Source of the DNA: a virus | Strand: one strand, 5' to 3' | DNA length: 30,640 nt | IMG/VR virus record: IMGVR_UViG_3300030098_006359 | Span: 3,640 to 34,279 of that record | Shown: positions 2,511 through 23,887 of the stretch, piece after piece | Numbering within the stretch: the stretch's first letter is position 1 | Layout: every line of letters starts with the position of its first letter | Notes under the pieces: generated by a model | What the model was told of the DNA's origin: nothing | What the model saw: only the letters and a program-made list of their open reading frames with translations | The model's database searches: none | Translations under genes and position numbers: made by a program

Positions 2511-2840
2511 TTATCTAAAAAAACTTAAAACCCTTTCCAATGGAAGAGGAATTAACACTGGATCTCCAGCTTCAAAATCACTCTCCAAGGGCTTTTGGTT
2601 GAACCAAGGTATAATCCACCACAAAGATGTGTCACCATAATATTTATCTGCTAGTTTATAGAAGCGAAAGCCAACGCCCCAATATTCTTTTTCAACATCA
2701 AAATCAGGAGACCAACCAAACTCAACTGTTGTGTGTTGAACAACATTGTTGACTTTCCTAGCAGTAAACTGATTTATATAGCTTGGATCAACATTTTTAA
2801 ATGTCGGAATGTTTTGATATCTTGAATAATTGTATGCCAT
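2511..2840 (-). CDS. Baseplate wedge protein, gp53-like with LysM-type domain
   Basis: A 109-residue protein. Its C-terminal half has the LysM-like pattern of phage gp53 and gpX-type baseplate proteins: YKLADKYYGDTSLWWIIPW, then N, then a GDPVLIPLPLERVL ending (residues about 62-106). In T4, gp53 joins the baseplate wedges around the hub, and in other contractile systems the LysM domain sits at the tube-baseplate joint. The start at 2840 has a GAGAGGAT ribosome-binding site. It lies 19 bases after the tube-initiator-like gene, so the two probably work together. The LysM-type assignment is fairly secure. The precise T4 equivalence is inferred from motif and position. Confidence 0.8.
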   Translation of the reverse strand: MAYNYSRYQNIPTFKNVDPSYINQFTARKVNNVVQHTTVEFGWSPDFDVEKEYWGVGFRFYKLADKYYGDTSLWWIIPWFNQKPLESDFEAGDPVLIPLPLERVLSFFR

Positions 2841-2859
2841 AATTTCTTATCCTCTCACC

Positions 2860-3786
2860 TTATATCTTATCCAATCTATAAGTGCTACGGCCCTTCAATC
2901 CCGCAGCGCCCTCATAGTCATGGCTGGGACTGAGTATACGCTCTGTATTTTTGCTTTCCACTCGTTTTCCAACCGATTTCGCGCCCTTTTTGGCAGTGCT
3001 ACTTTCTTCTTCGGGACTGTTTTCCGCAGAGGCTTTAATTGCAGGTTTTCCGTCTCCGCTAGCCTCGTCAACATTTTCTTTCTGAGTTGGTGGGTCATCT
3101 TCGGATGGTGTCTCAATTGGTGCGGAAGTACTGTTAAAGCCGCTTCGATATGGAAATTCCCCATCATAGCCATTTATACTAAATTTGTCCTTTTCTCCTG
3201 CGCGGCGCCAACCAACATCTTTATCGTGTATTACTTCAAAGGAAAAGCTAACTTTTATTTCGCGAGGAACTGCTAAATGATTGCCCTCTGCAGTTGAGGC
3301 ATATGCCATATTTCTTGCAATCTTACCCAATTGGTGGCTAAAGCCAGTTATATAGCCAGTTAAGCCCGTGGAAACGCCAGTACCACTATAACTTCCAACA
3401 TAACTACCATACCTAATTCTAAAAAAGGGAGGTGATCTCAAAAGGCTTTTAGTTGAGTCGGTCGACTGATACGCTGGATAAAGAAATTGCGTTAATAAAT
3501 TTATCTGATAAACATTATCTGAAACTCCTAGATTTCCATCAAAATAGTGATGAGCTTGACAGCTAAAAGAGAACCTCATTGAACGACCTGTGTTTTTGTA
3601 AGTAACGATTGGGTCCATACGACCATAAACCTCCTCTTTATTATAAGAGGGGCTAAATTGTTGACTAATATCTAAATTTTCCACAGGTAACGAAATACCA
3701 GGATGATTTATGTGCAAGGGGACTATATCTAACGTTTTATAGCCGCTTTTTCTGATATTTTTGCTCTCTAGGGGTTTCAAATCCAT
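2860..3786 (-). CDS. Tail tube initiator-like baseplate protein (gp48/gp54 or CIS_tube slot)
   Basis: A 308-residue protein directly downstream of the tape measure gene, the position that T4 gives to gp48 and gp54, the tube-fold proteins that cap the baseplate and start tube growth. Residues about 110-195 carry a pattern I associate with contractile-system tube initiators: SPPFFRIRYGSYV, then GLTGYITGFSHQLG, then VPREIKVSFSFEVIHDKDVGW shortened by one residue at its end. After residue about 215 comes a low-complexity Pro/Glu/Ser/Lys tail, probably disordered. AAAAAGGAG precedes the start. The neighbouring LysM protein fits, since Afp7-type proteins combine both domains in one chain. The family call is by pattern only. 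Confidence 0.7.
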   Translation of the reverse strand: MDLKPLESKNIRKSGYKTLDIVPLHINHPGISLPVENLDISQQFSPSYNKEEVYGRMDPIVTYKNTGRSMRFSFSCQAHHYFDGNLGVSDNVYQINLLTQFLYPAYQSTDSTKSLLRSPPFFRIRYGSYVGSYSGTGVSTGLTGYITGFSHQLGKIARNMAYASTAEGNHLAVPREIKVSFSFEVIHDKDVGWRRAGEKDKFSINGYDGEFPYRSGFNSTSAPIETPSEDDPPTQKENVDEASGDGKPAIKASAENSPEEESSTAKKGAKSVGKRVESKNTERILSPSHDYEGAAGLKGRSTYRLDKI

Positions 3787-3815
3787 TTCTTTATCAATTC
3801 TCCTTTTTAAGTTAA

Positions 3816-5990
3816 CTAAGCTAGCGACGTAACATGCATACTTACTAAATCATTATTTAAATAAACATTAGGCGCTGGCTGGTTCTTGATCGCATCTGCA
3901 ACAGCTACAGATACTGCGTTAGCTACTTCCTGTAATTGGGGGCCCTGAGCATATGGGCTGGGAATAGTGTCCATGCCCATAAATATATCCGTCATATTTT
4001 GGTTTGCTTGGGTCATTTGCGGTTGCGCTGGCGTGATCTGAGGACCGGCAGCGGGTGTTTCAGTGGTGGCTTCTACTGGTGTTGGAGTGGGATCTAGCGG
4101 ATTTGGCGCCTGACCTGTCGACTGTTCGGCTGCCGTTTTAGCTATGACTCCAGATACGACACCTTCTTTTCCCGCGATGGCGAAGGCGCCAGCAATTTTC
4201 GCAAATTGTTCCAAGGCGCCTTTTTTGTCTCCCGATTCCAGCGCTGTAAATACTTTGTTTATCTCTTTATGCATCGCTTGTAATGAGCCTACAGCTATTC
4301 CACCAATATCTCTCCTAAATGTGTCACCCAACTTAGTTACTTGTCTGTTGACTAAGTTAATCAATTTGCGAGATTCTGTATATGCTTTGTTGAGTAAAAA
4401 TGTACTTTGTTTCGTCGCCTCCATTTGATCTTGGATTGATACTGCTGATGCTGATGCTGCCATACCCAATCTCTCATAAGAGGCACCATTTTTATCAACA
4501 GCCTGAGTTGCACTATCAATTTCACCTTGTTGGGCCCCAAACATTCTAGCTGCGGCTTGAACATCCATACCCACCGACTGGGCAATTGCTTTTTTCTTGA
4601 ACCTATCCATTTCAGCAAAGCTTTCGCCGCTTTGGGTCATCATGTCCTTCAACATTTCAATACGCTCTGATTCAGAGGCATTGACCATATCTAGAGTATT
4701 GAGATAAGGACCGCCCATCATTGCATTCAATTCACCAACAGCATTTGCTGCTTTTTCGATGTCATCGAATCTTGATGCAACATCCATAACCTTGCTCATT
4801 TCCACTCCAGTCGTAGCAGCGATGATAGAGAGCTTTTTAAACTCATCTTTGGCCTTGGGTAGTGAATATGCTGCTAAATTTTTCATTGCCGAGTCAAAGT
4901 TTTTACTTACCATGTCGGCGCTTTGGCCAGTTACACGAGCAATGTTGACAAATTCGGCTCCCAATAGCTTACTTTGTTTAAGAATATCGCTGCGACGATA
5001 AGTTTTTCCTAAAACATCGACTGCTTTACCGAAGCCTTCTGTTCCTAAGCCCACTTTTTTAAATGTTAGGGCCATTTCTGTTAACTGATCTGCTGCAGCT
5101 ATATTTCTTTTTGCGTTAGTGCCCAACAACATTCCATAAGTTCTGGAGGCCTTTGTCAGCCCTGTATATGCTTCGGTGACATCTTTTACTGTCACGCCAA
5201 GCATTCTATTTCTTCTTTGAAGTTTTATAACACGACCAGTAAAATTAGAAACTGCTGCGTCACCCTTTATTACTTGGCCAGTAAATTCAACAAACCCTGT
5301 AGTTAAATTGCTAAATTCCATATATAGGGATTTTACAGTATTTGCTAAACTCATCATAGCACCAGCTAACTTATCGTTTTGGGCTACTCCAGCGCCAAGA
5401 AAACCAGCTAGCTGTGGAAACTTATCCATTACATCTTTTTCATATTGACCAGCAAAATTGGCAGTTTTGTCTGTGAGGACATCGACTCCCCTAGCAAGAG
5501 TGCTGGTGAGCAAATCGCCTTGATTTATCGCATTACTAAAACTTTTGCCTGTTGACCTAATGGCGGTGTCAAAAAGTTTAGTCTGTTGAACATTTTTGGT
5601 GAGTGCGGTTCGCAGCTGCTGTTGGCCACTAACTTGTGTATTGGTCTGAGCGATTATATTCTCATTTGCTTCTATTTGTTCTAATAAGAGCTTCTTTTTT
5701 TCTGCGCTTATTGTATTGTTTGCTTTTAGTTGGTTTCCTAAGAGCTTATAGATTTGAACTTGTACTTGGGCGCTGTCGTTTTGATCTACAAAGTCGGTGC
5801 CCATGTCTTTGATGACTTGCTTCATTGCCTCGGCTGTTTGTTTTCCCTCGCGCATCTGGGTCACAAAGTCAGCAGTGGCGTTTTTAATTTGAGCCACCTC
5901 ATCCGCAGCGCTGTTCAGAGAATCCACCAAATTTTCTAAATTGGCTTCTTCCAGGGCCGCAATCGTCTCTTGAAGAGTTTTGTCTGACAT
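3816..5990 (-). CDS. Tail tape measure protein candidate
   Basis: A 724-residue, strongly helical protein, the largest gene in the stretch from the tail chaperones to the baseplate, which is where tape measures lie. The first 150 residues have heptad-like spacing (ALEEANLENLVDSLNSAADE onward), and the middle is Ala/Lys/Met-rich. A short hydrophobic stretch lies near residues 215-245. A Pro/Thr/Gln linker (about 630-680) leads to a small C-terminal end containing NVYLNNDL. At roughly 1.5 angstroms per helical residue it would span about 110 nm, near the T4 range (gp29, 590 residues). GGGAG lies about 14 bases before the ATG. Its role in fixing tail length is inferred from size, composition and place. 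Confidence 0.75.
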   Translation of the reverse strand: MSDKTLQETIAALEEANLENLVDSLNSAADEVAQIKNATADFVTQMREGKQTAEAMKQVIKDMGTDFVDQNDSAQVQVQIYKLLGNQLKANNTISAEKKKLLLEQIEANENIIAQTNTQVSGQQQLRTALTKNVQQTKLFDTAIRSTGKSFSNAINQGDLLTSTLARGVDVLTDKTANFAGQYEKDVMDKFPQLAGFLGAGVAQNDKLAGAMMSLANTVKSLYMEFSNLTTGFVEFTGQVIKGDAAVSNFTGRVIKLQRRNRMLGVTVKDVTEAYTGLTKASRTYGMLLGTNAKRNIAAADQLTEMALTFKKVGLGTEGFGKAVDVLGKTYRRSDILKQSKLLGAEFVNIARVTGQSADMVSKNFDSAMKNLAAYSLPKAKDEFKKLSIIAATTGVEMSKVMDVASRFDDIEKAANAVGELNAMMGGPYLNTLDMVNASESERIEMLKDMMTQSGESFAEMDRFKKKAIAQSVGMDVQAAARMFGAQQGEIDSATQAVDKNGASYERLGMAASASAVSIQDQMEATKQSTFLLNKAYTESRKLINLVNRQVTKLGDTFRRDIGGIAVGSLQAMHKEINKVFTALESGDKKGALEQFAKIAGAFAIAGKEGVVSGVIAKTAAEQSTGQAPNPLDPTPTPVEATTETPAAGPQITPAQPQMTQANQNMTDIFMGMDTIPSPYAQGPQLQEVANAVSVAVADAIKNQPAPNVYLNNDLVSMHVTSLA

Positions 5991-7156: not shown

Positions 7157-7915
7157 TTAAGCTTTTTCTTTTGATTCGCCAAACATACTAGTCCAGTTCA
7201 TCTTATCTGTCCACCAGTCTGCTGCCTTATCCAACGCTGTTGAGTAGGGATTCCACGCTCGACCCATATCCTTTGATCTCTCGGACAAAAGGCGATCTCC
7301 CCATGAACTTAAATATTCAAAATTCTTATATTCAAAAGTCATATCAATAGTGCCAAAGCCTGACCCTTTATAATTTATAGGGGAAAAACTAACTGATGTC
7401 TGTACTGGATCTTCTATTATCCATTCTCCAACGGTGCGACCAGCATTATCAAATTCAATAATATGAAACACTCTTGGGTATTCCATCCATGATGTTTGGA
7501 GCACTTCCGGTGGCTGATCTTCCCGTACCAGCATTGTTCTATCAGCAAATGTACTAGTTTTCCCTTGAAGCACTAAAGATGTATGCACGGCAGCTGCAGT
7601 GTTCGCACCTTTGTTGTGATTTACAACATCCAAAAGCGTAATTTTCAGAGGGTTTGTTTTAAAACCCTGTGTCGGATAGCTAATTTTCGCAAAATCACCA
7701 GATTTTAACTGATATTCTGCGGTCGTTGCCTCAATTGAAGAATAACCGGGGCGACTAAAAGATGTTATTAAATAGGGTTCAATATTTTGTAAGCCATCGC
7801 CGCCAAAAATAAGATCTGGAAAGATCAAAATAGCCTCAAAAACTCTTTTTGGTCGCGCTTCGCTATTAGACCAGAATTGAAAAGCTTTTGGACTAAACAT
7901 TGGGAACTCAGGCAT
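7157..7915 (-). CDS. Second tail tube-fold protein (gp19 paralogue)
   Basis: A 252-residue protein just downstream of the tail tube gene and similar to it. Both share an aromatic QFWS near the N-terminus and a C-terminal pattern of a turn, a W-containing strand (VGEWIIEDPVQTSVSF here, IERWTLQNCWLSAVNF in the tube) and a final beta strand (DMTFEYKNFEYLS against NVQLTLRYDWAEY). It ends with an extra helical, Trp-rich tail of about 45 residues. In T4 such divergent tube-fold proteins (gp48, gp54) sit between baseplate and tube. This could be one, or a minor tube protein. A weak GGAG-like site, GGAGCACCC, precedes the ATG. Confidence 0.7.
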   Translation of the reverse strand: MPEFPMFSPKAFQFWSNSEARPKRVFEAILIFPDLIFGGDGLQNIEPYLITSFSRPGYSSIEATTAEYQLKSGDFAKISYPTQGFKTNPLKITLLDVVNHNKGANTAAAVHTSLVLQGKTSTFADRTMLVREDQPPEVLQTSWMEYPRVFHIIEFDNAGRTVGEWIIEDPVQTSVSFSPINYKGSGFGTIDMTFEYKNFEYLSSWGDRLLSERSKDMGRAWNPYSTALDKAADWWTDKMNWTSMFGESKEKA

Positions 7916-7936: not shown

Positions 7937-8581
7937 TTAAGTTGCGAGACCTGCTGATGGGCTTCGTGTGAGTCCCAATTCAGTTTGATAGTTTGTAATC
8001 GTCGAAGGCTGATCCATGCCGTTAGTCATAACGCTCTCAGGAATCGGAAGTGCCGCTTTCGGATCTGGCTGTCCTTCATATTCAGCCCAGTCATATCTAA
8101 GTGTTAATTGGACATTGATCATTGAGTCGCTTTCATATGTAAGTTCCCCAAAATTCACAGCCGACAACCAACAATTTTGGAGCGTCCACCTTTCAATGAC
8201 GTTACCCGTTGCATCAATTTGCTCCATCTGAGGCACTCCAAGAGCTTTGACACCATCTTTTTTACTAAAAGATCTTTTTGCATCGGTATATTTACCAGGA
8301 ATGGCATAACCAGAGGCTTGGAGAGTTTTAACCACAATAGCAGACGCGTCCGGAAAAACAGGATCAACCAATGTTATATTAAGTTCATTCCACTGGATTC
8401 TCCCAGGATAGTGAAAAGTGTGAGAAACAAATTGATGTTGAATCCCCTCAATGGTAAAGCTCGGTTTTCCAGCTGTTTTAATAACATATGTAGGAATTTT
8501 GTTTAAAAGCAAAATCCACCGATAACTTCTTTTTGGGTCGACCGTAGAGGCGCTCCAGAATTGATCTTGTTGAATTGTCAT
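7937..8581 (-). CDS. Tail tube protein, gp19-like
   Basis: A 214-residue protein immediately after the sheath gene, the normal sheath-then-tube order of myoviruses. Length and pattern fit T4 gp19 (163 residues) with small insertions: an N-terminal FWSASTVDPKRSYRWILLL, a central ITLVDPVFPDAS strand-turn and a C-terminal beta region ending in NVQLTLRYDWAEY. It polymerises as hexameric rings to form the inner tube through which DNA passes. AGAAGGAG stands 13 bases before the ATG, and the ACTATTTATT-like motif lies 21 bases upstream. Function is from family resemblance and order. Confidence 0.85.
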   Translation of the reverse strand: MTIQQDQFWSASTVDPKRSYRWILLLNKIPTYVIKTAGKPSFTIEGIQHQFVSHTFHYPGRIQWNELNITLVDPVFPDASAIVVKTLQASGYAIPGKYTDAKRSFSKKDGVKALGVPQMEQIDATGNVIERWTLQNCWLSAVNFGELTYESDSMINVQLTLRYDWAEYEGQPDPKAALPIPESVMTNGMDQPSTITNYQTELGLTRSPSAGLAT

Positions 8582-8627: not shown

Positions 8628-11600
8628 TTAATCCTCAAAAGATGCTCCTGTGTTGGTAATAATGAAATCAATTGCAATATATTCAATTGAACGCGCAGGT
8701 TTAATATAGATTTTCGCATACATAATGTTCCTATCCATAAGATCTGGTGTTGTGGTTGTTTCATCCAACACGACTTTATAATCGGTTAAGCCCAGACCAG
8801 CTTTAACATCTGATAGGAATGGTACCACTTTAGACTTAAACCTAGCCCAAGTAACATCAACATTCTGATCAAAAAGAATCGTTGAGGCGAATCTAGAAAC
8901 CTGCTTTTTCAAGAAGATTAGCAGTCTTCTAACGTTGATTCTATCTAAGGCAGATGCACTCACTTGAAGTGTTTTCTGCCCAAAGATTACGATACCTTCT
9001 GCTGGGAAAGAAGCAATCGGATTAATTTGGTTCTCATAGAGCCTATCGCGTTGCTTAACTGTGAGCTTTTCTTCAACTCCAACAACAGGTACACCACCAG
9101 CACGATTAGCACTTAAGCCACCTCTTGTAAAGCCTGCAGGTGCAAACCAAAGCTGAGAATTTGCCTCACCATAAGACATCGCACCCAAGGCGACAACTGA
9201 AGGGGGCGCCCAAAGAGTAACACCGTTAATGGTGTCTCTAATTTGTACCCATGGGTAATAGGCGCATCCATAGCTGCTATTAACTTGAAGCGTATTTTTC
9301 TTATTGCTCACAACGGTTTTTACATTGCCCTTGCGATCAGTTCTCGTTCCACTACTCTCGTGTGGTGGTGTGTAGCCACCATGCAAGTCAACAACTGCCA
9401 ATGCATCACCTCTCAGTTCACACATATCAATCAACTTATTATTAAGCGTATTGTCTGTAAGTCCTGGCATTGCCAACAAGTTGTATTCCACAACTTCCGA
9501 ATCTCTCAAAGAATCGATAGCTACTGAAACTGAATTATAGGCTGAACTGTCTGTTTCAGTTTTACCACTTAACCCGGTATTTCTAAATGGATCACTTTCC
9601 TTGATATTTAGACCGTCAGAGCCACCGGCCAAACAAGTAGTAAACTGTTTCCACCCTGCAGTGTCACCACCATTATCGTCATCAATAACATTGAGGTAAC
9701 TAGCGGCAGATGGGCCAGCAGTTGTTGCATCCTTTGAGCCTGTGTGTGCGGTGTAGGAAAGACCATCATGTCTAGAGCCGGAAGCCCACACAGCTTGTGT
9801 GCTATAACTCCCACTATAATTTGCATCGGTCACATTAACATTTCGAACATCATCGAGCGAGAAATACCACATATCTTCTGTTTTGCCCGAAGTTGCGTCC
9901 CAAGTTAAGTCCACACATTTGGTTCGAAGTACGTCAAAAGTACTGTGGTCTAGGCCGCGAGAACCATTATAGGACACATCAACGCCGAAATAGGCGTCTT
10001 TAGGATCTGTTAAGGAGGCGCCCTCCGAAGAGCTAACTCTCAGTCTTAATTCTGGGAACTTAAATTGAGCATTAAGAATAAGGTTGTCTAAGGTGCCTCC
10101 CGGAAGTGTTCCGGACGATGCTGTTCCACTCGTGCCTGCATGTGGGTCACTGACGGCGACTTGTACAAAAGCGCCTGCGGCGCCGGAGATAGAAGATGTG
10201 GCGCCATATTGAGAAATATTGCCGCTTGCAGTCGTACCCCAGCCAACGTAGCGAGGTGGTCCAATTACACCAAAGGGCAAATACTTTTCATTTGCTACGC
10301 CTCGCTCTACATCGCTATGTACTTCAACATAAATGTAGTTAGAGACATTAGCGAAGTCGCCAAAAGACCTATATCTTCGATCCGTATCATCCCATTCAGT
10401 AAACTTATTACCAATTTTGCGACCTATATAGTTGCTAGAACCGGGATCTAAGTTGCAATTATTGTATTGTTCTAAGATTGTTGGACTAGCGTCAGTATCT
10501 GCAATGTCTCGAATCAAAACAGTGAAAGTGCCATATTGATTTGAGTCTAGAGGGTCTGATGCTCTAAGGTCTTTAATGCTTATTTTGATTTTACGTTGAG
10601 TCTCTTCACCCAATTCACGACTAACAAACCTAAACAACTTTTGCATCTGTGATGCGTCATATTCATCGAATGTAGTAGATAAGTCTTGAGCAATAAACCA
10701 TCCAGTTTTTGCCATTTGTTGTTTAGGACTTTTGGTTGGAGACATTGTGTTGTCTCCAGCATCGGTACTACCATCTGGTGTACCTAAGCGCATAATAGCG
10801 CCATATGTTTTGGCTGCAGTTTGATTGTTAAATCCAATTTGGGATCCCGAATGATTATAAGTTCGAACGTGGCCCTCAAATGATTCTCCAAGCCAATAAT
10901 TTGTGTCGTTGTCGCTGCCGACAATTGTACTATTCGTTTTAATTGGGTTTGTGTTAAAAACCTTTCTAATAAACCGTGGAGAATCGGGGTCAAAGTTGAA
11001 AGAAGAGTCGATAACTTTGTTACCACTGCCATCTTTAATTATCGCCTTAAATGTCGGCCCTGTGTCTGCGGCTTCATAAAAGGTAAAAGCGGAAGAGCTA
11101 GCTGAAGTAGTAGTCCCAGAGCTAGCAACATTTCCAGAAAGTTGGATGCTTCCTGCTGTGAGATACCAAACTGCTGCTAAGGTACCCTCAGCGCCGCGGG
11201 TAGCATATGTATTCTCGGCAGCGCTAGTCAAATTAAACATTGTGCTTGATCCACTTTCGCAAATAAACAACCCATATGCGCCGTTGTTGTTGGCGCCCGT
11301 TGCGCTATCCCCAACGCTGTCTGCAGTTTTCCACCCAGCATAGCCTTCGCTAGTTGCATCTTTGTGTGTTTGCCCCAAAAGTCTAACCATTGTTATAGGA
11401 GAATTATTGCGCAACCATGCTTGTGCCGCATATGCTGCATACGTGGGAGAAGTATAGTTTCCATAGCGGAAAACATCACCACCTTTGCCACCAGCAATGG
11501 GCTTACCAAAAACTTCTATAAAATCCGAAAATGAATTAACTTGAACGGGCTTAAGTGCGGGGCCTCGCTCTAATCTACCAACAACCGCGGGTCCAATAGC

Positions 11601-11684
11601 GGTCGGCAATCCGGGTAATTGAGAATTATCAATTTCATTGATAAAAATTCCCGGCGATATAAACTTAAATTTCTTATAAGACAT
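8628..11684 (-). CDS. Contractile tail sheath protein, gp18-like, unusually large
   Basis: A 1018-residue protein against 659 in T4 gp18. The N-terminus has the usual sheath opening, SPGIFINEIDNSQLPGLPTA, then AAYAAQAWLRNN and a TMVRLLG strand. The C-terminal sheath core (about residues 830-1018) includes FVIFGQ-like IVIFGQKTLQ, LIFLKKQVSRFASTILF and the closing IEYIAIDFIITN. These ends mediate polymerisation and contraction. About 350 residues more than T4, Gly/Ser/Thr/Asp-rich, lie between about 110 and 720 and probably form extra outward-facing domains. AAAGGAG precedes the ATG, and the repeated ACTATTTATT motif is 38 bases upstream. Confidence 0.92.
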   Translation of the reverse strand: MSYKKFKFISPGIFINEIDNSQLPGLPTAIGPAVVGRLERGPALKPVQVNSFSDFIEVFGKPIAGGKGGDVFRYGNYTSPTYAAYAAQAWLRNNSPITMVRLLGQTHKDATSEGYAGWKTADSVGDSATGANNNGAYGLFICESGSSTMFNLTSAAENTYATRGAEGTLAAVWYLTAGSIQLSGNVASSGTTTSASSSAFTFYEAADTGPTFKAIIKDGSGNKVIDSSFNFDPDSPRFIRKVFNTNPIKTNSTIVGSDNDTNYWLGESFEGHVRTYNHSGSQIGFNNQTAAKTYGAIMRLGTPDGSTDAGDNTMSPTKSPKQQMAKTGWFIAQDLSTTFDEYDASQMQKLFRFVSRELGEETQRKIKISIKDLRASDPLDSNQYGTFTVLIRDIADTDASPTILEQYNNCNLDPGSSNYIGRKIGNKFTEWDDTDRRYRSFGDFANVSNYIYVEVHSDVERGVANEKYLPFGVIGPPRYVGWGTTASGNISQYGATSSISGAAGAFVQVAVSDPHAGTSGTASSGTLPGGTLDNLILNAQFKFPELRLRVSSSEGASLTDPKDAYFGVDVSYNGSRGLDHSTFDVLRTKCVDLTWDATSGKTEDMWYFSLDDVRNVNVTDANYSGSYSTQAVWASGSRHDGLSYTAHTGSKDATTAGPSAASYLNVIDDDNGGDTAGWKQFTTCLAGGSDGLNIKESDPFRNTGLSGKTETDSSAYNSVSVAIDSLRDSEVVEYNLLAMPGLTDNTLNNKLIDMCELRGDALAVVDLHGGYTPPHESSGTRTDRKGNVKTVVSNKKNTLQVNSSYGCAYYPWVQIRDTINGVTLWAPPSVVALGAMSYGEANSQLWFAPAGFTRGGLSANRAGGVPVVGVEEKLTVKQRDRLYENQINPIASFPAEGIVIFGQKTLQVSASALDRINVRRLLIFLKKQVSRFASTILFDQNVDVTWARFKSKVVPFLSDVKAGLGLTDYKVVLDETTTTPDLMDRNIMYAKIYIKPARSIEYIAIDFIITNTGASFED

Positions 11685-11763: not shown

Positions 11764-13752
11764 TTAATCTCTATAAAATCCACTTTTTGGGTCAAAATCT
11801 TGCTCATCGCTCAAAATAACTCGCTCGCGTGGCAATTTTACATCTACTACGTTCTCTCTTCTAGTAACTTTTGGTCTCTCCTGGTTTTTTCCTTCGCCTA
11901 TGACATAACCAAGTACTTCAAAATTAACAGTAGTTTGAAAAACTCTCTCCTCCTGATCGAATGATGAAATATTATTGTTTTGCGACAAATCTGACTGTAA
12001 AAACGTTTCATATTTGTGGCCATCTTTTTCTATCAAAAAGGAATTTATGTGGCCGCCTAACGTCACAAATGGCTGTAACATTTGATTCATATGTTGTTGA
12101 TAGTTTGATTGTAGGGTAACTTGATAACCCATACTCACATACACTGGTTGTGGTACTGAAAGGGTTTCTATTACAACTTTCTTATTTTTCTTTTCAACTA
12201 GAGGATAATACGGTTGTCTTCCCGGTGTTCGATTTACATTATTAAACTTTCTTATATTTTGAGCTATGGCAAAATTATTTGTCTTATCGCTAACTATTTT
12301 TTGAGAAATAGCAATTCTACCACCTCTTATCGGATCTGTAAATTGGGTTGGTGCACCAAAATATTTACCCTTCTTGGCTAGATCTTTTGTCATGGAAGTC
12401 CTCTGAATACTTATAATAGGGTAAATAAGGGTGCCATCAATATCATATATATCTTTATCTTTTTTAGAAAAATAAACCCTCTCTGGGGAAGACCAGACTA
12501 AAGTTACTTTTTTCCACCCCTTATTAGTATTTGCTCTAATTTGCATCTTATCATTAATAAAATCATAAAATGCGTAATCAATTGTTTCGAAATTGGAGGG
12601 GTTTACAAAAAACTCATCTAGAAATTTATTACTACTTTCTAGCTCCTTAGCGACATCTTTAACACCAGTGGTTCTCTTTATTTTACTTCCATTGGTTTTG
12701 CGCTTAGGGTCGCTAGCAGGTGCCACATAGTACGCATATGCACCGATTGAGGGTGGTGTTCTAAAAGAATTACGAGCAAGACCTAATGTTGGCGCGAATG
12801 TTGAACTTCCCTTTTCAAACAACAAAGCGCCCGAACCGCTGAACGGAGTGTAGTCAGCGCTAGCAACACTGTTGAATACTACAGCATTTGAAGAAACGCC
12901 AGAACCTTTTGTTATATTGGATGTCGATCCAACGTTAGTGTTAATGTTATCAGAAGACCAACGCGCCCCCCAAAGGACACAATGGGAAGCTGTTGATGTT
13001 GTCGGACTGCCATAGAGCAGCGCTTTGTCACCTGTAAATCCATCGGAAGTTAGACAATCCATACCCACCGTTGTATTATAGACTTTAGCATTATCGCCTA
13101 ATACATATATACCTATAGACGAAGCATTACCCGCTGTGCGGTTATTGTATACGGTAGTGTTTTTTATCGTAGGGCCAGGGTTGCCATTAGTGCCTAAGTA
13201 GATACATATGTAAGATGCGTTTAAAACAAAGCACGATTCAACAAGAGACCCTGAAGCGTTAGTAGAATCTGGACCTAATAAGTATGCGTTGTCGGCGGCA
13301 GTGTGAAATGATCCGTCAAACTTGCAGCGGCGATAAGTTGTGTTGTCGCCCATGCCCGACACCCCATAATATCCCGATGTCTCAATTATCATATCTTCGA
13401 GAAGATGTCCACCGTTGTCACCATATCCACCGTGTAAAAAACCACTAGAGGTGGAGAAATCTCCCGTATATCGCCCTTTAAATCCTTTAAAAGTCCAGTT
13501 AGTACAGTTGTTCATATCTATGGTTTTATAACCGTAAGAAGTGCCGGGATTACTGTAATAGACATCATAGTTGCCAGGATTTTCAACGTCTCCTATTACA
13601 GTAATGCTATCAAGTCCGCTGGGTTGTATCCTCTCATCCACACTATACCCAGAGACAAGTTGTATTGTATCGCCATTACTGACTGCTCCTGCTGAGAGAG
13701 CAGCTTGTATAGATGCGTGGTCTCCTCCGCTACCAACAGTAATAGTTGCCAT
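11764..13752 (-). CDS. Beta-helix domain fused to gp15-like tail terminator
   Basis: A 662-residue single frame with two parts. Residues about 1-340 look like a right-handed parallel beta-helix: a DHASIQAALSAG opening, a GDTIQLVSG strand-turn, and repeated short rungs with N/G turns such as GPTIKNTTVYNN and NAKVYNTTVG. Residues about 375-640 resemble T4 gp15, the tail terminator that caps tube and sheath: YPIISIQRTS, PVYVSMGYQVTLQSNYQQHM, a MLQPF segment and a closing TTVNFEVLGYVIG, matching the order of strands in gp15. The place just before the sheath gene agrees, as gp15 precedes gp18 in T4. No internal Met and ribosome site was seen that would release the terminator alone. The start overlaps the previous stop as TAATG. 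Confidence 0.75.
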   Translation of the reverse strand: MATITVGSGGDHASIQAALSAGAVSNGDTIQLVSGYSVDERIQPSGLDSITVIGDVENPGNYDVYYSNPGTSYGYKTIDMNNCTNWTFKGFKGRYTGDFSTSSGFLHGGYGDNGGHLLEDMIIETSGYYGVSGMGDNTTYRRCKFDGSFHTAADNAYLLGPDSTNASGSLVESCFVLNASYICIYLGTNGNPGPTIKNTTVYNNRTAGNASSIGIYVLGDNAKVYNTTVGMDCLTSDGFTGDKALLYGSPTTSTASHCVLWGARWSSDNINTNVGSTSNITKGSGVSSNAVVFNSVASADYTPFSGSGALLFEKGSSTFAPTLGLARNSFRTPPSIGAYAYYVAPASDPKRKTNGSKIKRTTGVKDVAKELESSNKFLDEFFVNPSNFETIDYAFYDFINDKMQIRANTNKGWKKVTLVWSSPERVYFSKKDKDIYDIDGTLIYPIISIQRTSMTKDLAKKGKYFGAPTQFTDPIRGGRIAISQKIVSDKTNNFAIAQNIRKFNNVNRTPGRQPYYPLVEKKNKKVVIETLSVPQPVYVSMGYQVTLQSNYQQHMNQMLQPFVTLGGHINSFLIEKDGHKYETFLQSDLSQNNNISSFDQEERVFQTTVNFEVLGYVIGEGKNQERPKVTRRENVVDVKLPRERVILSDEQDFDPKSGFYRD

Positions 13753-14015
13753 TAGGGTTGCTCCTCGTCATTTGGAATGGGTTTGCCATCCACTTCAAGC
13801 AGTCTGCCGTCATTACTGTACAAAGATGTGGTAACTAAATCACCATCTTCATCCCATTCTTGGTGCAAACCAACGGGTACGTTATACACATAATCACCCA
13901 ATAATTTAATTACGCCATTAGGGAAAGTTACTGTCACGGTGCCGTTTACCTTACCATCAACTTTTGTTCCAGTTGCGGTGCATCCGTCACTTCTTGATAT
14001 TGTGTACTCTTCCAT
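13752..14015 (-). CDS. Small MORN-like repeat protein
   Basis: An 87-residue protein with a MORN-type pattern: NGTVTVTFPNG, then LLGDYVYNVPVGLHQEWDED, giving about two to three beta-hairpin units of the form G-x-x-x-x-x-FPNG and VPVGLHQEW. Such repeats are known in many bacterial and some phage proteins and usually mediate binding. A specific role cannot be read. It lies between the neck and tail-terminator genes and shares TAATG with the latter, so the two are translationally coupled. It could be a small neck decoration or an assembly factor. The ATG follows AAAAGGGATTAAT. Confidence 0.6.
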   Translation of the reverse strand: MEEYTISRSDGCTATGTKVDGKVNGTVTVTFPNGVIKLLGDYVYNVPVGLHQEWDEDGDLVTTSLYSNDGRLLEVDGKPIPNDEEQP

Positions 14016-14032
14016 ATTAATCCCTTTTATAA

Positions 14033-14545
14033 TTAACTAGCATCAAACGTGCCTTCTCTTGCTTTTATACACTTGGCCTGAGCTTCGAATATTCGTTCCC
14101 AACCATCATGGCCTTGGCCAAATATCTGCTTTGGGTAGTCAATTGTTGCAATTTCAAAAAAGTCATCACCATACAATATAAAGTCACCCTCTCGAATATA
14201 TAAGTCTTGGTCTTCTGTAAGCCTTCTTCTGTGAAAATTAACTGTCAAAGATAATCTCTTATCAATACCCAAATTGCTGACTGTGGTGGCATAGCCTTCC
14301 CACACAACCAAAACATGGACTCTTATTGGAGATAGGAAGCTTTTTTCTACAGCCTCTCCATATAGCGGGTGAAAATTGGTATGTTCCAGGCTTATGGGAT
14401 AATAAATTATCTCTTGGCCAACAACTCTTTCAATTAGTTCATCATTAACCTGCTTTACTAAATCTCTTTCTTTCTCTCCTAAAAATAATGGAGGTGGAGG
14501 TGAAGCAGGTTGTGACCACTTATTTTTGTCTGTTGCGTCTGCCAT
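14033..14545 (-). CDS. Neck / head-closure protein candidate (gp14 slot)
   Basis: A 170-residue protein located five bases after the larger neck candidate. A Pro-rich start (SPPPPLFLGEKERDLVKQVN) leads into a beta-rich body with REGDFILYGDDFFEIATI near residues 116-133, a strand-turn-strand of the sort found in head-closure and neck proteins. T4 gp14 occupies this slot after gp13 and helps seal the filled head and attach the tail. I do not see a decisive family motif. The assignment rests on order, size and beta content. Its start has a weak upstream site overlapping the preceding gene's end. Confidence 0.6.
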   Translation of the reverse strand: MADATDKNKWSQPASPPPPLFLGEKERDLVKQVNDELIERVVGQEIIYYPISLEHTNFHPLYGEAVEKSFLSPIRVHVLVVWEGYATTVSNLGIDKRLSLTVNFHRRRLTEDQDLYIREGDFILYGDDFFEIATIDYPKQIFGQGHDGWERIFEAQAKCIKAREGTFDAS

Positions 14546-15901: not shown

Positions 15902-16183
15902 TTATTTCTTAGAAGTGGTCTTTGTGCTTTTTTTAGCGCTGGGCCACATTGATTTCTTTTTTGTGGTCGTCTTGGTTGTCTTTTTTGGAGCCTCTTTTGG
16001 TTTTGGAGCCTCTTTTGGTTCTACCTTGACAGTTTTCTCTTTAGGCGCCTCTATAGTCGGATTGACAATCGGCTCAAATTTAACTTCCTCGACCTCAACT
16101 TCCTGAGTGCTCAAAGCTGGATGTTGAGCATACTTTTTACCATATTTCTGAGTTTTTGCTATCATTTTTCTTTTCTTGCCCAT
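15902..16183 (-). CDS. Small Lys/Pro/Thr-rich basic protein, histone H1-like composition
   Basis: A 93-residue low-complexity protein: an N-terminal basic start (MGKKRKMIAKTQKYGKKYA), a short acidic middle, a duplicated PKEAPK unit, and a very basic Lys/Thr end. The composition recalls H1-like tails or a DNA- or RNA-binding internal head protein, but no fold is recognisable and that role is inference. The ATG is well supported by AAGGAG seven bases upstream and by the repeated ACTATTTATT motif. It is the first gene after the capsid terminator, so it probably starts the neck/tail transcription unit. It may be packaged with DNA or processed by the prohead protease. Confidence 0.7.
   Translation of the reverse strand: MGKKRKMIAKTQKYGKKYAQHPALSTQEVEVEEVKFEPIVNPTIEAPKEKTVKVEPKEAPKPKEAPKKTTKTTTKKKSMWPSAKKSTKTTSKK
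15983..16018 (-). repeat. Perfect 18-base tandem duplication in Lys/Pro-rich gene
   Basis: Two back-to-back identical 18-base units (15983-16000 and 16001-16018), each encoding PKEAPK, keep the frame and lengthen the low-complexity linker by six residues. Confidence 0.95.
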
Positions 16184-23072: not shown

Positions 23073-23887
23073 TAGCTTTGTACCTCTTTGGCAACTAGTT
23101 GTACTTTAAGGATGTTTTGAATCATTTCTTTATCTAAAGGCTTTTTGTTGCAAGACTCTAGAAGCTCTTGTACTTTCTTCATTTTATCGAGCATCTTATT
23201 ATCTTTTTTTAGTTCTTCTAAATTAAAAGATTCTTTAATAATACTTTTAAGTCGACTTATTTCCTCGTTTATATATAATTTCAAGTCAACACCGTTATCT
23301 AAAAATGATAAAATATATTTATTAAGCAAATGTTTTTGATTTTCTGATAGGGTTGTTTTATACTGGTTATTGAACCTCTCAACAAACTTATTAACAACAA
23401 GATTGTTTACTTTATCATTTTTTTCATATTTTTGTTTTTTGTGGGTTATCTTAGACAAGACCTTTTCCTCTAAAACAACACGATGTTTAACTCCTACATC
23501 TTCGCCAAATATCTGCGAAAGAGTTGCAATGTCTTTGTAGTTTGGAACGAAATTGGAGAACACAGATTTAGAAATTTCTTTATTAATTTTCTTAATTAAT
23601 GTGCTTTGTTCTGAGAATATTTTCTTTTCATTTAGATTCTTATATTCCTTTTTAGTCTCTTGAATTAATTTTTCGCCAATCCTTGCAGAAACTCCTGTTG
23701 TTTCCATTAAGGTCTTAAAGAGTCGTAGTTCTTTCCCTAATTCATTTTTAGCACTAAAAGCTTCTTTTAAAATAGCGACAGTTTTATTTCTGACGGCTGT
23801 ATCTTTATTCATAGTCCGCTTAACTACTTCACGCACTAACGCCTCATAAAGAAAGGCGGTATTTCTCTTTTTATTATGTTTAGGCAT
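23072..23887 (-). CDS. Helical head-operon protein following portal gene
   Basis: A 271-residue, Lys-rich, almost wholly helical protein that I do not recognise. It begins MPKHNKKRNTAFLYEALVRE. Later segments such as KHRVVLEEKVLSKITHKKQ and NLEELKKDNKMLDKMKKVQE look like amphipathic helices. It overlaps the portal stop by eight bases. In T4, small prohead-core genes (67, 68) lie between gp20 and gp21, so a core or portal-associated role is plausible but unsupported by similarity. Confidence 0.7.
   Translation of the reverse strand: MPKHNKKRNTAFLYEALVREVVKRTMNKDTAVRNKTVAILKEAFSAKNELGKELRLFKTLMETTGVSARIGEKLIQETKKEYKNLNEKKIFSEQSTLIKKINKEISKSVFSNFVPNYKDIATLSQIFGEDVGVKHRVVLEEKVLSKITHKKQKYEKNDKVNNLVVNKFVERFNNQYKTTLSENQKHLLNKYILSFLDNGVDLKLYINEEISRLKSIIKESFNLEELKKDNKMLDKMKKVQELLESCNKKPLDKEMIQNILKVQLVAKEVQS

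Follow-up and report, generated by a model that had tools for sequence, protein, structure and literature searches.

A gp15-like tail terminator fused to a predicted beta-helix module shared between phage lineages

In the window, the whole 30,640-nucleotide stretch of DNA analysed here and taken from a virus record of 34,279 bases, one intact and uninterrupted ORF with an ATG start (11764–13752, minus strand, 662 aa) fuses an N-terminal module predicted to be a right-handed parallel beta-helix to a gp15-like tail terminator (Table 1). By analogy with known neck proteins, we consider it reasonably probable that this fusion would be hexameric and would display up to six outward beta-helices at the phage neck, where they would act on polysaccharide. 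The MORN-like gene and beta-helix that lie together in the window also occur as a pair elsewhere: in a second T4-like lineage the beta-helix is again joined to gp15, whereas a phage with a P22-like portal has the pair without that fusion.

Table 1. Features of the fusion gene and its surroundings (window coordinates)
Feature	Coordinates	Strand	Remarks
gp15-like tail terminator domain	11764..12633	(-)	residues 374–662; 99.3% aa identity to the standalone gp15 of L002 (290 codons)
Linker	12634..12717	(-)	residues 346–373; sequence unlike the L016 linker; downstream crossover near 12634/12635
Beta-helix module	12718..13752	(-)	residues 1–345; end at about SIGAYAYYVAPA, where identity to L016 drops
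MORN_2-like gene	13752..14015	(-)	87 aa; its stop and the start of the beta-helix gene share one base
Block replaced relative to the L002 empty site	12635..14069	(.)	last bases of gp14, MORN-like gene, beta-helix and linker; edges approximate
gp14-like neck gene	14033..14545	(-)	170 aa; named by position, family match absent; the L002 copy overlaps gp15 by 11 nt
Tail sheath	8628..11684	(-)	adjoins the 662-aa gene on its downstream side

The gene belongs to a T4-like cluster of structural genes on the window's minus strand, which runs from the major capsid protein (Gp23, E 2e-75) through a head-tail adaptor Ad2 match, the 170-aa gene and the 87-aa MORN_2-like gene to the 662-aa gene, the tail sheath, the tail tube and a baseplate protein, so that the gp15-like domain sits between the neck gene, named by position, and the sheath. 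The sheath protein is 1018 aa long, and its best family stretches fall in the last third (647–1016 for PHROG and 723–1009 for Pfam), which suggests large added domains. Two adjacent tail-tube-like genes at 7157–7915 and 7937–8581 (PHROG 4542, E 0.0047 and 8e-24) may include a tube paralogue, and a lysine-rich protein of 93 aa is encoded at 15902–16183, the version in the related contig L002 having 109 aa with more KKTTKVAP repeats.

The earlier note had read the C-terminal half as a gp15-like terminator and the N-terminal half as a parallel beta-helix, and both assignments are borne out by predicted structure, the second at fold level. The whole 662-aa protein gave no match in Pfam (E ≤ 1) or PHROGs (E ≤ 0.1). 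The full-length model was built from 52 sequences. When its residues 381–640 are cut into 26 ten-residue blocks, 20 of them have a mean pLDDT of 71–96 and the other six of 58–65. For residues of about 384–640 Foldseek placed T4 gp15 first (9mkb_AB, E 6.9e-9), with P1 8jan also among the top matches, and VIA likewise ranked T4 gp15 first (4huh_B, Z 12.5, rmsd 3.5, 150 aligned). Relatives were gathered by an IMG/VR scan with a 12-relative alignment, from which the best 80 of at least 572 encoding stretches were kept; 24 of these 80 match the Pfam family T4-gp15_tss (PF16724) at E ≤ 0.01, the best at E 1e-6. Neither the window's full protein (E ≤ 1) nor the L002 gp15 matches that family, and the full sequence of one gp15 family member scores 22.9 bits, under the cut-off of 25. 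Across the family, PHROG gives weak hits that disagree on function (tail sheath stabilizer, 3/80; tail collar protein, 3/80; several unnamed). A search of 50,697 phage records with the gp15 part returned two records at 21–23% identity (E 1e-5 and 2e-3), and its profile found no match among PDB chains at E ≤ 10. The 80-row alignment, which includes both fused rows, has 20 invariant columns. With the structural matches, the family matches of its relatives and the sheath gene next to it, the C-terminal half holds as a predicted tail terminator of the T4 gp15 type (gp15/gpU family fold).

Of 92 distinct contigs, 60 show an 11-nt overlap between the end of the gp14-like gene and the start of gp15; the 92 include four contigs with no gp14 match and one whose gp15 start was not placed. 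The N-terminal tail of gp15 is variable, with 17–60 residues between the upstream stop and the core anchor in 90 of the 92. These counts drop L021 and L022, which are the L004 and L005 contigs, and the repeats L015, L018–L020 and L102–L110; L029, whose gp15 start is unclear by first ATG, was checked stop to stop. Two tandem gp15-like genes occur in L067 (about 2630–4706) and L071, where both copies were read, and by spacing in L069 and L070. The second copy is extended C-terminally by about 110 aa, comprising a Gly/Ser linker and a further stretch, and this long second copy with a spacing of about 840 nt is seen in 4 of the 92 contigs. Tandem genes of the L067 type are another route to terminator extension, on a duplicate copy.

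The full-length model left the N-terminal module unresolved, and residues 1–345 were modelled alone from three sequences. The best model has a mean pLDDT of 51 and a pTM of 0.60, with residues 261–352 under 50, and the remaining four models score 29–38. Foldseek gave nothing at E ≤ 0.001 (best match E 2.8e-3), with pectin methylesterases, a pectate lyase, PL6 lyases and Rhombotarget A filling ranks 1–13. In VIA, which re-examines Foldseek's own list, the 50 structures listed of 432 aligned have Z scores of 17.2–20.5, and most span residues 1 to about 298. We take all 50 listed structures to be beta-helix proteins, phage tailspikes and phi29 gp12 included. The module sequence up to residue 345 closes with SIGAYAY, which seems to resemble an end motif common among bacterial beta-helix proteins. 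No named Pfam or PHROG beta-helix family matched the module, the profile of this half found nothing among PDB chains at E ≤ 10, and an analysis of hydrophobicity periodicity gave no signal. The N-terminal half holds as a predicted right-handed parallel beta-helix, at fold level only and with low model confidence.

The scans brought up relatives of the module in three contigs: the window's twin (L006/L015, 100% identity), L016 (92%) and L017 (67% overall, with 80% over residues 105–235 and 45% over 301–345). They were seeded by short exact peptides, which remoter relatives can escape; repeating the viral scan from different segments of the module led to the same three contigs. Two phiH matches at E 2 in a tblastn search of the 50,697 phage records were taken as chance, as was a candidate among genome contigs (L101, 31% over 81 residues), whose ORF is by eye unrelated except for GYSVDERI. 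The L017 relative of the module gave no tblastn match in the same phage records.

The earlier note had also proposed that the module was acquired separately, and this is shown by an empty site in L002, by a module common to the window and L016, and by a module without gp15 in L017. L002 is 94–98% identical to the window on both flanks, lacks 12638–14036, and encodes a standalone 301-aa gp15 whose ATG overlaps gp14. The two gp15 sequences differ at 7 positions from 12634 downward and at 21 of the 34 bases directly above; in gp14, 10 of 16 mismatches fall within the last 57 bases, in a run that begins at 14069. About 1.44 kb of the window replaces the L002 gp14/gp15 junction, and the edges of the block appear to lie inside the core genes on either side, the pattern expected of recombination. 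Between the window and L016, the module has a nucleotide identity of 93.6% (dN 0.047, dS 0.136, dN/dS about 0.34), identity drops where the beta-helix ends, and the two linkers are unlike; gp15 is 66.0% identical in nucleotides with a saturated dS of 3.2, and the sheath dS of 2.5 is saturated as well. A resemblance of TGVKD in the window's linker to the gp15 N-terminal tail of L026 was dropped, as nucleotide support was absent.

The MORN-like gene travels with the module. Its product matches PF07661 at 16.6 bits (E 0.0085), and the homologue in the L017 phage at 29.1 bits against a cut-off of 29.6 (E 7.6e-7). Its own search recovered the same three contigs as the module, the L016 copy being 5'-truncated by the contig end, and gave no match in the 50,697 phage records. 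The L017 contig has a P22-like portal (E 2e-35) and no gp15 match, and here the pair follows a 553-aa virion gene and precedes a gene that reads by eye as another beta-helix. Two further proteins of the L017 phage, near the module in L112 (2935–3597 and 7847–8812), are also beta-helix-like by eye, the second with a weak tail spike match. Judged from these comparisons, the acquired unit comprises two genes, for the MORN-like protein and the beta-helix, with edges inside gp14 and gp15.

Base composition had been offered as a sign of this acquisition, and here the observation stood and most of its weight did not. The GC counts of the sampled lines (14, 15, 34 and 33 of 60) are correct, and the gp15 part (11764–12696) has 33.8% GC against 44.4% for the beta-helix part. 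Of 574 placements of two segments of these lengths, 13 show a step as large, as do 9 of the 494 that stay clear of the gene, these at three other places near 15.4, 17.1 and 23 kb. The GC step alone proves little, because steps as large occur elsewhere in the window and because the GC of the module falls between that of the sheath gene (43.2%) and that of the major capsid gene (48.2%).

The gene encodes a tail terminator of the T4 gp15 type that carries an N-terminal beta-helix, predicted at fold level, on a linker of about 30–40 residues. As the sole gp15 found, and a conserved one, the terminator part would still form a hexamer that caps the sheath and the tube. The terminator C-terminus pairs with the sheath in XM1, Milano and R-type pyocin (PMC10457771, PMC10491603), which makes the N-terminus the natural site for an added domain; this end also varies among the gp15 relatives. 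The neck would carry up to six projecting beta-helices, either monomeric or grouped as two trimers, which should point outward because six such domains would hardly fit inside the tail lumen. There they would bind or cleave polysaccharide in the way of beta-helix tailspikes and neck appendages, aiding adhesion of the virion to the host or to polysaccharide-rich matter, while the MORN-like protein might cap the beta-helix or assist its folding. Recombination within gp14 and gp15, on either side, is the most likely route by which the block came in, replacing the usual gp14/gp15 overlap.

The fusion shares with T4 gp15 its fold, its gene position before the sheath and the Pfam T4-gp15_tss family; it differs in the N-terminal beta-helix domain, which 90 of the 92 contigs lack and which T4 gp15 is not known to have. 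The preneck appendage gp12 of phi29 is likewise a beta-helix at the neck, and its structure 3gq8 aligns with the module model at Z 17.3 in VIA; gp12 is a separate protein, of a podophage. In Vibrio phage XM1, gp40 is a tailspike-homologous neck protein that contacts the terminator gp5 and forms a collar spike proposed to act in host sensing or attachment, but it is a separate trimer bound via an Ig-like N-terminal domain, whereas here the module is covalent with the terminator (PMC10457771). Lactococcal phages of the 936 group likewise have exchangeable neck modules in their neck passage structure, two groups of which match the pectin- and alginate-related structures 1gq8 and 2pyg; it is a separate siphophage collar protein whose variable part follows a conserved N-terminal 180 residues (PMC6669499). 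Alteromonas phages A5 and V22 offer a two-gene recognition unit common to morphologically different marine phages, but one made of a tail fibre and a downstream chaperone (PMC10579305); the unit here pairs a MORN-like protein, encoded upstream, with a beta-helix that is fused to a neck protein. Among the titles and beginnings of abstracts listed, with subscription papers mostly outside the scope, we found no terminator fused to a beta-helix; neck-borne beta-helices are already known as separate proteins, and fusion to the terminator is what differs here. By analogy with the XM1 collar spikes and the lactococcal neck-passage proteins, the module is most likely a glycan-binding or glycan-cleaving neck decoration.

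The beta-helices might instead be structural, reinforcing the head-tail joint or holding tail fibres in the manner of T4 whiskers or the Milano collar, with no action on glycans. Such a role has precedent in the XM1 gp40 trimers, which bridge gp4 and gp5 and strengthen the joint (PMC10457771), and in a Milano collar without fibres (PMC10491603). We regard it as unlikely: 90 of the 92 contigs manage without the module, the module is also present without gp15 in another phage, and many of its nearest structures are glycan-active enzymes or adhesins, though a common fold proves no function.

It is also improbable that the two halves separate, by protease cleavage of the linker or by initiation at the GTG of codon 343, to leave an ordinary terminator in the virion and a beta-helix that is free or attached elsewhere. 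T4 virion proteins undergo proteolysis, the linker stretch has low pLDDT, and both fusions have an in-frame GTG, as codon 343 of the window's gene and codon 344 of that in L016. This GTG, however, specifies a Val close to where the beta-helix ends, and by eye lacks the AGGAG-like sequence that precedes the MORN, beta-helix and L002 gp15 starts, and the linkers of the window and L016 fusions are not conserved. Between codon 343, at the beta-helix end, and codon 403, in the gp15 core, there is no in-frame ATG, GTG or TTG. One gp15 match is present in the 95.5-kb record that twins the window, whose genome is incomplete. With no likely start for gp15 alone and a single gp15 in that record, every terminator subunit probably carries a beta-helix, unless the remaining genome encodes another gp15.

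Relatives with and without the N-terminal module were both found (L016 fused; L002 and most others unfused), and the distribution bears on whether the fusion is a recent in-frame accident without function. Fused gp15 occurs in 2 of 92 contigs, a set that is the best-scoring part of the gp15 family, or in 1 of 91 (the window's twin) among contigs from gp15 searches, L016 having been fetched via the module search. Because it is rare and absent from the near-identical L002, the fusion may be short-lived, and the same two facts could speak for an accident. Against this, two divergent T4-like lineages keep the module open and in frame with a dN/dS of about 0.34, and the MORN partner travels with it, so that we give an accidental, functionless fusion only a slim chance. 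The gp15 tree groups the window with L002 and sets L016 on a separate branch; starred branches force at least two changes, which may represent two gains, or a gain with losses, and 10 rows of the starred 12-row clade containing both fusions are unfused.

A chimeric assembly across the joint, which the GC step there might suggest, is very unlikely and close to negligible, because a second assembly, the 95.5-kb L006 contig that may share the window's sample, keeps the joint (12 mismatches, one 3-base gap and a 10-N run, none at the joint), and because the divergent L016 has the fusion too, its module being 92% identical to the window's, its gp15 about 61% identical and its linker different in sequence. 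The 10-N run of the twin lies near 23839, where the window is contiguous.

There is about an even chance that the terminator ring of this contractile tail serves as a docking platform on which a mobile MORN and beta-helix unit, also present in the phage with a P22-like portal, makes the six gp15 subunits into an obligate collar that binds or cleaves glycans, gained or lost between near-identical phages. If so, the neck would gain a function in contact with the host or matrix, fusion to the terminator would fix the copy number and place of the beta-helix, and a core assembly protein would tolerate an N-terminal domain of about 340 residues. The window and L002 form a natural pair with and without the module, through which the part played by neck decorations can be tested directly.
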